Shown in pieces: positions 13,177-53,615 of a stretch of DNA of 64,000 bases. Both the position numbers and the translations under genes were made by a program. The notes below the pieces were generated by a model. That model was not told the origin of the DNA. It did no database searches and was given only the letters and a program-made list of their open reading frames with translations. The DNA lies in contig JAGYNO010000001.1 of assembly GCA_018399955.1 (NCBI GenBank), positions 1-64,000 on the forward strand, given 5' to 3'. Numbering within the stretch: the first letter of the stretch is position 1; each line of letters opens with the position of its first letter. This DNA is from Halanaerobium sp. (GTDB lineage Bacteria; Bacillota; Halanaerobiia; Halanaerobiales; Halanaerobiaceae).

Positions 13177-13219
13177 TTGTCGTTATCTGTTGGTACCTAG
13201 TACCAACAGATAACGACAA
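13177..13219. repeat. 43-bp palindromic element, copy 1
   Basis: TTGTCGTTATCTGTTGGTAC-CTA-GTACCAACAGATAACGACAA: perfect 20-bp arms. Confidence 0.97.
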
Positions 13220-33320: not shown

Positions 33321-33477
33321 CTGTGACTAAAAAATATTTGTATACAGTCTTTAAAATCCGCAATTAATTGACAAGTGATTAGACTTTAATTATAATTAAT
33401 AATGAAAAAGACATTTGAGAAAGTTTTAATTATCTAAAAAATTTTACAAAATATGAAAAAATATAAATAAGATAAAT

Positions 33478-33546
33478 CCTTATATAATTGTGGAAATATG
33501 GTTCACAAGTTTCTATTGATTAGCCGATAACTATTCAACTATAAGG
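33478..33546 (+). promoter_or_regulatory. Purine riboswitch aptamer, guanine class
   Basis: CCTTATATAATTGTGGAAATATGGTTCACAAGTTTCTATTGATTAGCCGATAACTATTCAACTATAAGG; TATAAT-P2-AAGTTTCTA-P3-AACTAT aligns with the xpt aptamer; discriminating J3/1 pyrimidine is C. Confidence 0.9.
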
Positions 33547-33629
33547 GGACACCATTTAGACTGTAGATTTAATTAAAGGTTTGGATGAAGTGGAAATATT
33601 ATATATTTCTATTCAGTTAGGGCAAAAGT

Positions 33630-33775: not shown

Positions 33776-35095
33776 ATGAGCAGTTCAAATGAAGGTTTAC
33801 TGGAAGACATGTTTAAACTTGAAAAAAATAATACTGATGTAAAAACAGAAGTAATTGCTGGTTTTACAACATTTATGACAATGGCATATATTATCTTTGT
33901 TAACCCTGCAATTTTAAGTGATGCAGGTATGCCTTTTGATGGTGTTTTTATTGCGACTATTATGGGGGCAGTTCTTGGTACTCTTGCAATGGCATTTTTA
34001 ACTAATTATCCATTTGCCCTTGCTTCTGGTATGGGTCTTAATGCATTTTTTGCTTATTCAGTTGTAATAGGTATGGGGGTGCCCTGGCAGGTAGCACTTG
34101 GTATTATTTTTCTTGAAGGTATATTATTTATTATTTTAAGTGTAACCCCTGTTAGAGAGATGATTGTAAATAGTATTCCGATGGCTCTCAAAACAGGAAT
34201 AAGTGCAGGTATTGGTTTATTTATTGCATTTATTGGTTTGCAAAATGCTGGTATTGTTGTTTCCGATCAGGCAACATTAGTAGCTATGGGTAATATTTTT
34301 GTTGGTCCCGGTTTGGTTGCTTTATTAGGCCTTTTGGTAACAGGTATTTTACATGCACGTAAGGTTAAAGGTGCTCTGCTTTGGGGTATTTTAATTTCTA
34401 CAGCTTTTGGCTGGACTAATGGTGTAACTCCAGCTTTTTCAGGCTTATTCGCTATGCCTCAGATGGCAGATTGGTCAGAGGTTTTATTTAAACTTGATAT
34501 AGTTTCTGCACTTGATATTGGCATGATTGGTGTACTACTATCTTTCTTATTTGTCGATATGTTTGATACTGCAGGCACTTTAGTTGGTGTTAGTCAGCAG
34601 GCTGGCTATCTTGATGAAAATGGAGATCTTCCAAAAGCAAGTAATGCCTTATTGGCTGATGCGATTGGTACTACTGGTGGTGCTTTGTTTGGAACTAGCA
34701 CAGTTACAACATATGTTGAATCTGCTTCTGGAGTTGCAGAAGGTGGAAGAACAGGATTGACTGGTGTGGTTGTTTCTATATTATTTTTCTTAGCTTTATT
34801 CTTTAAGCCTTTAATTGGTATTGTGCCAGCTGCAGCCACAGCTCCAGCACTTATTATTGTTGGTACAATGATGATGACCAATATCACAAAACTAGACTGG
34901 GATGATTTTACAGAAATACTTCCAGCTTTTGTTGCAATGATTGCAATGCCTTTAACCTATTCTATTTCAAATGGTATTGCACTTGGTTTTATTGTTTATC
35001 CAATCATTAAATTATTTACTGGAAAAGGTAAAGATGTTCACTGGTTAGTATATCTTTTAGGTGTAGTATTTATATTCTATTTTATAGTTCATTGA
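33776..35095 (+). CDS. Purine (hypoxanthine/guanine/adenine) permease, AzgA/PbuG-like
   Basis: TEVIAGFTTFMTMAYIIFVNPAIL; DMFDTAGTLVGVSQQAGYLDENG; TTYVESASGVAEGGRTGLT. Confidence 0.93.
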   Translation: MSSSNEGLLEDMFKLEKNNTDVKTEVIAGFTTFMTMAYIIFVNPAILSDAGMPFDGVFIATIMGAVLGTLAMAFLTNYPFALASGMGLNAFFAYSVVIGMGVPWQVALGIIFLEGILFIILSVTPVREMIVNSIPMALKTGISAGIGLFIAFIGLQNAGIVVSDQATLVAMGNIFVGPGLVALLGLLVTGILHARKVKGALLWGILISTAFGWTNGVTPAFSGLFAMPQMADWSEVLFKLDIVSALDIGMIGVLLSFLFVDMFDTAGTLVGVSQQAGYLDENGDLPKASNALLADAIGTTGGALFGTSTVTTYVESASGVAEGGRTGLTGVVVSILFFLALFFKPLIGIVPAAATAPALIIVGTMMMTNITKLDWDDFTEILPAFVAMIAMPLTYSISNGIALGFIVYPIIKLFTGKGKDVHWLVYLLGVVFIFYFIVH

Positions 35096-35773: not shown

Positions 35774-35924
35774 TTAAATTACCTCCATTGATTGTTTGTT
35801 TTAATTATATAAGTAAATCACTCGGATTTCTAGTAAGATTTTAAAAAAAGATTAATTTAAATAAATAAAAGGGTTTTTTTAATGAATCTTGAATTATAAT
35901 AAATAGAATAAGAAAATATAATAT

Positions 35925-36005
35925 TCTGGGGTGCCAACTGGCTGAGAGATATATTCAACCCTTAGAACCTGGTCTGGATAATTCCAGTGTAGGGAAGCTG
36001 AAGTA
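35925..36005 (+). promoter_or_regulatory. TPP riboswitch (THI element)
   Basis: GGGGTGCC..GGCTGAGAG..ACCCTTAGAACCTGGTCTGGATAATTCCAGTGTAGGGAAG. Confidence 0.95.
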
Positions 36006-36013
36006 ACTTTAAT

Positions 36014-51130: not shown

Positions 51131-52264
51131 ATGAATATACTTGCTGCACCAGACTCATTTAAAGGTTCTTTAACAGCTTTGGAGGCTGCAGAAAATATCA
51201 AAAAAGGAATTAAAAACTTTGATCAAAATATTAATGTCGATATATTACCGATGGCCGATGGTGGAGAAGGCACTGTGCAGTCACTTGTAGATGCAACTGA
51301 TGGTGAAATTATTAAAAAAGAAGTTACAGGGCCGCTTGGAGAAAAGGTTGAAGCATTTTATGGCATCTTAGGAGATCAGAAAACTGCTGTAATCGAAATG
51401 GCAGCAGCTTCGGGACTTCCCCTGATTCCAGCAGCAAAAAGAAATCCCCTAAAAACAACTACATATGGTACAGGTGAACTGATAGCCTCTGCTTTAGATC
51501 ATGGGGTTGAAAAAATAATTGTTGGTATTGGTGGAAGTGCGACAAATGATGCAGGGGTGGGGATGGCCCAAGCTCTGGGAGCAGAAATACTAGATAAAAA
51601 TGGTAAACAGATTGCTTTTGGAGGAGAAAAGCTCGCTGAGATTAAAGAGATTAATTTAGAAAACCTTGATTCGAGAATTACAGAAGTAGAGTTTTTGACC
51701 GCATGTGATGTAGACAATCCTCTTTTTGGTAGAAATGGTGCTGCATATGTTTATGCACCTCAAAAAGGTGCTGATCAATATATGGTAGAAAAATTAGATA
51801 ATAATCTAAGACATTTTAATGAGGTAGTGAAAAAAGAGCTCGGCAAAAATGTTAATAAGATTCCTGGTGCAGGGGCAGCAGGAGGATTGGGAGCGGGACT
51901 TGTAGCATTTTTAGGAGCAGAACTCAAAGCAGGTGTAGAGATAATTTTGGATTTGATTAATTTTGAAAAAAGACTAAACGGTATTGATCTAGTAATAACA
52001 GGAGAAGGGATGCTTGATGGCCAGAGTATTTATGGTAAAACACCGGTGGGAGTAGCAAAAAAAGCTAAAGAAAAAGGGATTCCTGTTATTGCTCTAGCCG
52101 GCACACTTGGTTTTGGTGTTGAAAAAGTTCTGGACCAAGGTATTGATGCTTATTTCAGCATCATTGATAAACCAGCAGATCTTGATGCAATTATTAAAGA
52201 AACACCAGATCTGATTCAGAAATTGAGTGAACAGATTATAAGAACAGCTTCAATTTTAAATTAA
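51131..52264 (+). CDS. Glycerate kinase
   Basis: APDSFKGSLTALEAAENIKKG, MADGGEGTVQSLVDAT, GIGGSATNDAGVGMAQALGAE. Confidence 0.95.
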   Translation: MNILAAPDSFKGSLTALEAAENIKKGIKNFDQNINVDILPMADGGEGTVQSLVDATDGEIIKKEVTGPLGEKVEAFYGILGDQKTAVIEMAAASGLPLIPAAKRNPLKTTTYGTGELIASALDHGVEKIIVGIGGSATNDAGVGMAQALGAEILDKNGKQIAFGGEKLAEIKEINLENLDSRITEVEFLTACDVDNPLFGRNGAAYVYAPQKGADQYMVEKLDNNLRHFNEVVKKELGKNVNKIPGAGAAGGLGAGLVAFLGAELKAGVEIILDLINFEKRLNGIDLVITGEGMLDGQSIYGKTPVGVAKKAKEKGIPVIALAGTLGFGVEKVLDQGIDAYFSIIDKPADLDAIIKETPDLIQKLSEQIIRTASILN

Positions 52265-52267
52265 ATA

Positions 52268-52314
52268 AATTGTCCTAAATTGTTGGTACCTGGTACCAAC
52301 AATTTAGGACAATT
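52268..52314. repeat. Palindromic element, copy 2 (43-bp core at 52270-52312)
   Basis: AATTGTCCTAAATTGTTGGTACC-T-GGTACCAACAATTTAGGACAATT: perfect 23-bp arms. Confidence 0.97.
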
Positions 52315-52349: not shown

Positions 52350-53615
52350 ATGCTTAAATCATTTAAGAATAAATTAAGACAGAACAATTTTTTTAAAATG
52401 AAAACTGAGTTTTCAATTCTGCAGTTTTTCTTCTGGAGTACCTGGGCTGTTTATGGAGCCTATCTTGTCTATTATTTAGATGATATTGGCTACAGCAGTA
52501 TGCGTATTGGAACATTAATGTCACTAAGAACTTTAATGGGACTTATCGGTCCACCTTTAATTGGTTATACTGCAGATAAGATTGAAAATAGGAAAGCAGT
52601 ATTTATGGTCTCAATGGCTTTCTTGGGGATTACTGTAGCACCTTTTCCTTTTTATGGAGATCTGATGATAGCTCTTTCGATTGCAATGATAGGCATACTA
52701 TGGGAGCCCCAGCAGTCTGTTTTGGACAGCTGGATTCTTGAGACTTCAGATCAATTAGCGGTTAATTATGGATTTATGCGTGCCTGGGGTTCAATTGGTT
52801 TTGCTTTTACAGTTGTAATTTTTGGTCAGATTATCAACTGTTTTGGCTGGAAGATTCATTTTATGGGCTATGGTTTAATTGCATTTATAACTATTTTTAC
52901 TGCATATTTTATAAAAGATATTAGTTATCAAAATATTAAAGTTAGTCAAAAAAATACAGAATTAAGCTCACAAGATTTTAATAGAGAAGAGAAAGAGGCA
53001 GCCGAAAGAGATACAGCAAAAGATAAAAATATCCTGCGTTTATTTAAAAACAAAGGCTATATATTTATATTATTTGTTACAGTTTTGATTTTTATACCTG
53101 CAATGATGATTTTTGTTTATCTTGCACCTGCTATTAAAGCAGTTGGTGGTGATTCAAGAGACCTCGGTTATACCCTGTTTTTTAATGCATTAAGTGAAGC
53201 ACCAATATTTTTTACTGCCAAATATTTTTTGGAGAGATATAAAACAAAACCTTTATTGTTATTTGCGGCTGTATTTTATATGATCAGGATAATTATTGCT
53301 GCCTTGGCTACTTCGCCTTTTTATTTTATATTTTTTGGTATGCTGCAGTCTTTATCTTATGGAGTATTTCTTGTGACGGTACGCTATTATGTTAAATTAG
53401 TTGCCCCAGAAGATCTTAAAACAACTGCACAAAGTATTGCTTTAATGGCCGGTTTTGGTGGGGGAGGGATTATCGGCAGCCTGCTTGGAGGATATCTGAT
53501 CGATAATTTTGGGATATCAGCAATGTATAGTGTCTGTATTTCCTTGAGTTTTTTTGCAGTACTTACACTCTTGATTTCTATAATATTAGATTTAAATAAA
53601 AATCAAGCCTTTTGA
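52350..53615 (+). CDS. MFS transporter, nucleoside/sugar symporter-like
   Basis: 421 aa, multi-pass; FFWSTWAVYGAYLVYYLDDIGYSSMRIGTLMSLRTLMGLIGPPLIGYTADK. Confidence 0.82.
   Translation: MLKSFKNKLRQNNFFKMKTEFSILQFFFWSTWAVYGAYLVYYLDDIGYSSMRIGTLMSLRTLMGLIGPPLIGYTADKIENRKAVFMVSMAFLGITVAPFPFYGDLMIALSIAMIGILWEPQQSVLDSWILETSDQLAVNYGFMRAWGSIGFAFTVVIFGQIINCFGWKIHFMGYGLIAFITIFTAYFIKDISYQNIKVSQKNTELSSQDFNREEKEAAERDTAKDKNILRLFKNKGYIFILFVTVLIFIPAMMIFVYLAPAIKAVGGDSRDLGYTLFFNALSEAPIFFTAKYFLERYKTKPLLLFAAVFYMIRIIIAALATSPFYFIFFGMLQSLSYGVFLVTVRYYVKLVAPEDLKTTAQSIALMAGFGGGGIIGSLLGGYLIDNFGISAMYSVCISLSFFAVLTLLISIILDLNKNQAF

Follow-up and report, generated by a model that had tools for sequence, protein, structure and literature searches.

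The palindrome at positions 52268-52314 of the window (the whole stretch of Halanaerobium DNA analysed, 64,000 nucleotides) is best read as a double-foot REP-like element of a family spread by a RAYT, and we put the probability of this reading at about 0.78. Probably it is no switch for the following gene but a small parasitic DNA that lodges downstream of genes. We regard it as a REP-like mobile repeat because related cores flank RAYT genes in relatives, because one-footed and dimeric copies exist, and because different palindromes are found at the same sites. Judging from these relatives (the draft genome itself yielded none), the probable agent of the family's spread is a RAYT of the HUH/Y1, single-strand-specific TnpA-REP class.

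The palindrome, denoted copy 2, has the form AATTGTCCTAAATTGTTGGTACC-T-GGTACCAACAATTTAGGACAATT, and its 23-nt arms are 100% complementary with 1 nt between them. The sole other comparable inverted repeat within the 64-kb window is copy 1, with arms at 13177-13196 and 13200-13219. In shuffled sequence the arm pattern was matched 0 times and the core 0.01 times, and both palindromes are beyond chance. The features are as follows:

52268-52314, no strand assigned: copy 2, perfect palindrome read as a double-foot REP-like element, 23-bp arms, centre 52291
52281-52301, no strand assigned: core TGTTGGTACC-T-GGTACCAACA of copy 2, sequence-conserved in all copies
52275-52280, + strand: variable inner arm of copy 2, left, covarying with 52302-52307
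52302-52307, - strand: variable inner arm of copy 2, right, covarying with the left inner arm
52270-52274, + strand: left foot TTGTC of copy 2, outer part of the consensus TTGTNGA
52308-52312, - strand: right foot of copy 2, GACAA on the + strand
13177-13219, no strand assigned: copy 1 of the element, flanked by a ygeY-like gene and a carbamoyltransferase gene
51131-52264, + strand: glycerate kinase gene (TIGR00045, E 9e-157), upstream neighbour of copy 2, outside the element
52350-53615, + strand: MFS transporter gene, downstream neighbour of copy 2, outside the element

The initial annotation had described the palindrome with its 23-bp arms and its sister, copy 1, and these held, as did the reported differences between the two copies: the inner positions differ at 4 of 6 with the opposite arm changed to match, and one central base differs, which leaves a single unpaired position in copy 1. 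The spacings were also as measured there, the 43-bp form of copy 2 (52270-52312) lying 5 nt past the glycerate kinase stop codon and 37 nt ahead of the next ATG, and copy 1 lying 38 nt ahead of its next ATG; copy 1 begins 10 nt past the upstream stop.

The genome carrying the window is a draft of 1.87 Mb in 154 contigs, 76% complete (24% missing), and copies were counted via pattern searches only, so that the count is a lower bound. The pattern TGTTGGTACC-NN-GTACCAACA occurred at 15 places (up to 3 mismatches), and the reversed pattern at 0. A search with foot, arm and half-core gave seven further places, one-footed, tandem or dimeric, for a total of at least about two dozen copies. Tandem single-foot units were located on contig C81 at about 5.38 kb, and single-foot units on the same contig at about 6.7 kb, on C107 at about 4.0 kb directly before uvrC, and on C118; compound units were located on C102, between infC-like and L20-like protein genes, and on C154, and an inverted dimer on C13. 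Thirteen of the 15 core copies are free of open reading frames, and the other two are overlapped by doubtful ones only. As in REP families, the element is a short intergenic palindrome in many copies, counting the 15 core copies and the seven further places.

To describe the anatomy, the 15 core copies were aligned on their centre and positions were numbered outward from it. The core TTGGTACC-W-GGTACCAA is fixed in every copy, the A+T-rich arm next to it varies, and outermost is a foot with the consensus TTGTNGA. This is not the canonical REP foot GTAG/GTGG, and TTGTAG is present in some copies only. The core (positions 1-10) is conserved as sequence in the 15 copies. The inner arm (positions 11-16) is variable and matches its own opposite arm at 65 of 90 positions, compared with 45.4 +/- 4.5 after shuffling (0 of 20,000 shuffles as high), and at 55 of 60 versus 35.0 when only the ten two-footed copies were considered. 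The foot (positions 17-21, TTGTN) is again conserved as sequence, and its own-arm matches, 45/75 versus 45.8, indicate no covariation. A pair-count covariation score of 0.200 versus 0.114 was not reached in any of 500 shuffles, and structures slid along the alignment scored 0.05-0.09. Full compensation was restricted to c01, c02, c05, c08 and c13, in which 12-13 of 13 outer positions are paired, while c07, c11, c14 and c15 have one foot only and pair at just 2-6 of 13. The basic plan of the element is therefore a hairpin core footed on one side or on both, copy 2 being the double-foot form.

The initial annotation proposed that selection acts on pairing or two-fold symmetry and not on primary sequence, and these data bear on that. 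The inner-arm covariation is real. Uncompensated copies, which had been named as evidence against the proposal, were found (c07, c11, c14 and c15) beside the five compensated ones, and so count against it in part. Covariation does not prove selected pairing here, given that the foot does not covary and that it and the core are both kept as sequence. We consider it unlikely that the palindromes act in cis as RNA hairpins (attenuator, mRNA stabiliser or processing site) under selection for pairing, even though the inner arms covary, the site lies between co-directional genes, and the predicted RNA folds of the two window copies are very stable (-31.5 and -31.2 kcal/mol, z about -10 and -9). The four one-footed copies have unpaired arms, the predicted fold of c11 is no better than shuffled (z -1.3), and copying accounts equally well for the matching of arms; selection for an RNA hairpin, possible for individual copies, would moreover leave the one-footed copies and the RAYT link described below unexplained. 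An intrinsic terminator (hairpin plus T-run) was found on the + (gene) strand at neither window copy, copy 2 having a T-run after the hairpin on the opposite strand only, and transcription termination has no support on the gene strand. The palindromes gave no match to an Rfam family of structured RNAs.

Rfam matches elsewhere in the window were a purine riboswitch aptamer at 33460-33561 on the + strand (RF00167, 77 bits), ahead of a gene at 33776, and a TPP riboswitch aptamer at 35917-36012 on the + strand (RF00059, 58 bits, barely above threshold), ahead of genes from 36059.

Two-fold symmetry, the strong conservation of the TTGGTACC half-sites and the position of both window copies 37-38 bp ahead of a start codon would suit operators of a DNA-binding regulator (two-fold sites, e.g. 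of GntR-type repressors) controlling the downstream gene. Across the 15 copies, however, the distance to the next gene ranges from 2 to over 500 bp, and the matched spacing pointed out in the initial annotation is a coincidence. Ten of the 15 are located within 25 bp past a stop codon, adjoining unrelated genes; the neighbours of the family include uvrA, uvrC, glycerate kinase and the infC-rpmI/rplT interval, and the suggested regulation of the downstream gene found no support. An operator would not require a perfect palindrome of 43 bp whose arms covary, the family has one-footed, tandem and dimeric forms, and close relatives have retained the same genes while nearly lacking the sequence. We therefore judge control by such a regulator to be quite improbable.

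The exact core (up to 1 mismatch) was absent from 11 same-genus genomes and 49 further relatives, and it had no match in GTDB contigs or IMG/VR viral contigs, so that a phage or a widespread mobile carrier of this exact core was dropped. The shorter sequence GGTACCnGGTACC occurred 13 times in G001, 9 in G002, 18 in G003, 14 in G006 and 9 in G009, and 18 times in the genome carrying the window, and its reversed control 0 times throughout the genus. These genus sites comprise several palindrome types built on one core, e.g. GGTACCGGGTACCTGG-N9-CCAGGTACCCGGTACC. In the gap between ygeY and the carbamoyltransferase gene (ygeY-ygeW), the site of copy 1, one type is present in G001, G003 and G009 and another in G006; G010 has no element there, and G002 has a single GGTACC. 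In the uvrB-uvrA gap, the palindrome type of G006 differs from that of G003 and G005, and 3' of glycerate kinase G006 and G007 have other types, whereas several other genomes have none. The TTGTNGA-footed form is nearly limited to the species of the window, with one near-identical single-foot copy elsewhere (G006:C1:592169). No copy of this species' type yielded a clean empty site whose ends were exact: at copy 2 the gene order beside glycerate kinase differs, and at copy 1 relatives have either no element or a different one. In a separate pair of orthologous GGTACC palindromes, L107 (G003:C29) and L121 (G001:C5), the loops TGGATATTTTTTCCA and TGGAAAAAATATCCA are mutually reverse-complementary and look as though inverted between the arms.

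A pair of cores in G014 was traced to a RAYT-like protein gene lying between them. Searching the genus with PF01797 and 101 relatives with a profile gave nine close members of this group, and seven of the eight in-genus members are directly behind uvrA. Both flanks of all nine genes contain, within about 170 bp, either the core (up to 2 mismatches) or GGTACC. GGTACC occurs 26 times in 5.4 kb of flank around these genes versus 4 times in the 21.6 kb beyond, and 0 times in 6 kb around a second RAYT group, from the same genomes and two order-level relatives, which served as control. The RAYT-like protein matches PF01797/Y1_Tnp (E 9e-15) and the NCBIfam REP-associated tyrosine transposase NF047646 (E 4.5e-16; 59 bits, below the cut-off of 80), and its only PDB match is TnpA-REP 4er8 (E 0.0028). 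It has an invariant HxH (HUH) and Y---NP (Y119..N123-P124), the latter being the class 2 signature (PMC6006769). Near-complete genus genomes without this RAYT group contain 0, 0 and 2 cores (G010, G011 and G004), yet G007 and G008 carry the RAYT and hold only 0-1 exact cores. In the second RAYT group (L147-L150, L152 and L155), another flanking motif, GTACC..CCCG...TGTCGA-like and without GGTACC, was observed, and at L098 and L139 motifs of both groups are joined.

Thus a related core flanks a RAYT-like gene in nine relatives, and the 76%-complete draft carrying the window has no detected RAYT: a direct test of the draft found none, nor was a RAYT fragment found at the contig ends beside copies c06 and c14. 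At a contig edge of the same genome (G000:C144:1-1403, L176), an IS605-type TnpA fragment is followed by a full-length TnpB-like gene; this fragment, of IS200/IS605 type, was the only candidate and is not a RAYT. The inverted-repeat structure and dispersed copies could also describe a MITE with abutted terminal inverted repeats, derived from a transposon unrelated to RAYT, but a longer element bounded by these ends was not encountered, and RAYT genes of nine relatives have the core at their flanks whereas those of the second group lack it, making such an origin very improbable. A gene cassette attC site and a protelomerase site were dropped, the centre rather than the ends being conserved and the copies many and dispersed.

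In the model that we propose for the REP-like family, the unit would consist of a GGTACC-W-GGTACC hairpin core preceded by a short A+T-rich arm and, at the 5' end, the foot TTGTNGA, and the RAYT would act on a single strand, recognising foot and hairpin. For known TnpA-REP proteins, foot and hairpin are both required, to varying degrees (PMC8266576). Units would spread into intergenic places, mostly just past stop codons, and become arranged singly, in tandem, as inverted dimers or as double-foot palindromes. We infer that the double-foot form may arise from an inverted dimer (foot-core-loop-core-foot) whose middle is lost through slippage from one GGTACC to another, these repeats being at the same time direct and inverted. 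Both arms would derive from the same kind of unit and hence be complementary from the start, and template-switch copying between them could keep them matched; each double-foot copy would then have its own matched arms, with feet drifting independently. Any effect on the host would be passive at most, a stable 3' mRNA hairpin past the stop codon between co-directional genes. A broader proposal, possible and held tentatively, is that the RAYT group was kept behind uvrA in most species of the genus while its cognate repeat, and with it the repeats genome-wide, changed from species to species, and that the self-palindromic GGTACC core allows double-foot, single-foot and inverted-dimer repeats to turn into one another. 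Covariation of the arms would then come from copying and not from selection on RNA structure.

Like REP/REPIN sequences with their RAYTs, the element is a short extragenic palindrome with a conserved foot beside the hairpin, has single, tandem and inverted-dimer forms and species-specific sequence families, and has a related core flanking the RAYT gene, here in relatives. It differs in its foot (TTGTNGA versus GTAG/GTGG), in its 6-1-6 core GGTACC-W-GGTACC, in its copy number (about two dozen, i.e. tens, low for REPs, versus hundreds) and in that a RAYT was not found in its own draft. Double-foot REPs have been described for TnpAY1 subclass 2.4, with a central deletion in an inverted dimer as possible origin (Quentin et al. 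2018, PMC6006769); they share a foot and its reverse complement at the two hairpin ends, but have GT[AG]G feet and another transposase subclass. No REP-like sequences were reported beside the largest TnpA-REP subclass, 2.1 (PMC6006769). TIRYTs are RAYT-like genes with flanking GGGGWSAS repeats, partly self-complementary and occurring in dimers and clusters (Di Nocera et al. 2013, PMC3733652). Here too, RAYT-like genes are flanked by inverted, partly self-complementary repeats of moderate family size with dimers or clusters, whereas the GGTACC-based sequence, the species-specific foot and the 43-bp perfect palindrome are particular to our element.

At 80 other Firmicutes RAYT loci, G+C-rich 6-1-6 palindromes occurred at 1.08/kb within 300 bp of the gene versus 0.13/kb elsewhere, in 27 of the 80 loci and with the former rate inflated by two tandem arrays. 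Their sequences are GGGGTCAGACCCC, GGGGACAGTCCCC, GGGGCCAGGCCCC, TGAGCCAGGCTCA and GGTGCCAGGCACC; the first two fit GGGGWSAS and have the 6-1-6 design in common with our element. GGTACC-W-GGTACC itself does not match GGGGWSAS, while repeats of other Firmicutes RAYTs do (GGGGTCAG/GGGGACAG). In Rossellomorea vietnamensis (L199 and L215), TGAGCCAGGCTCA palindromes form a tandem array with a 25-bp period directly behind the RAYT gene.

The published surveys of REP-type transposases that we found say little on Firmicutes, and in the present family, from a Firmicutes genus, short palindromic repeats are linked with RAYT genes. The family connects the earlier descriptions of TIRYTs and double-foot elements, and the palindrome fits among the latter as a member of this broader kind. 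That a palindrome carries compensatory changes does not in itself prove a selected RNA structure, because inverted dimerisation or arm-to-arm copying gives the same pattern. Since closely related species have the transposase in place and a changing repeat, transposase-repeat co-evolution becomes directly testable.
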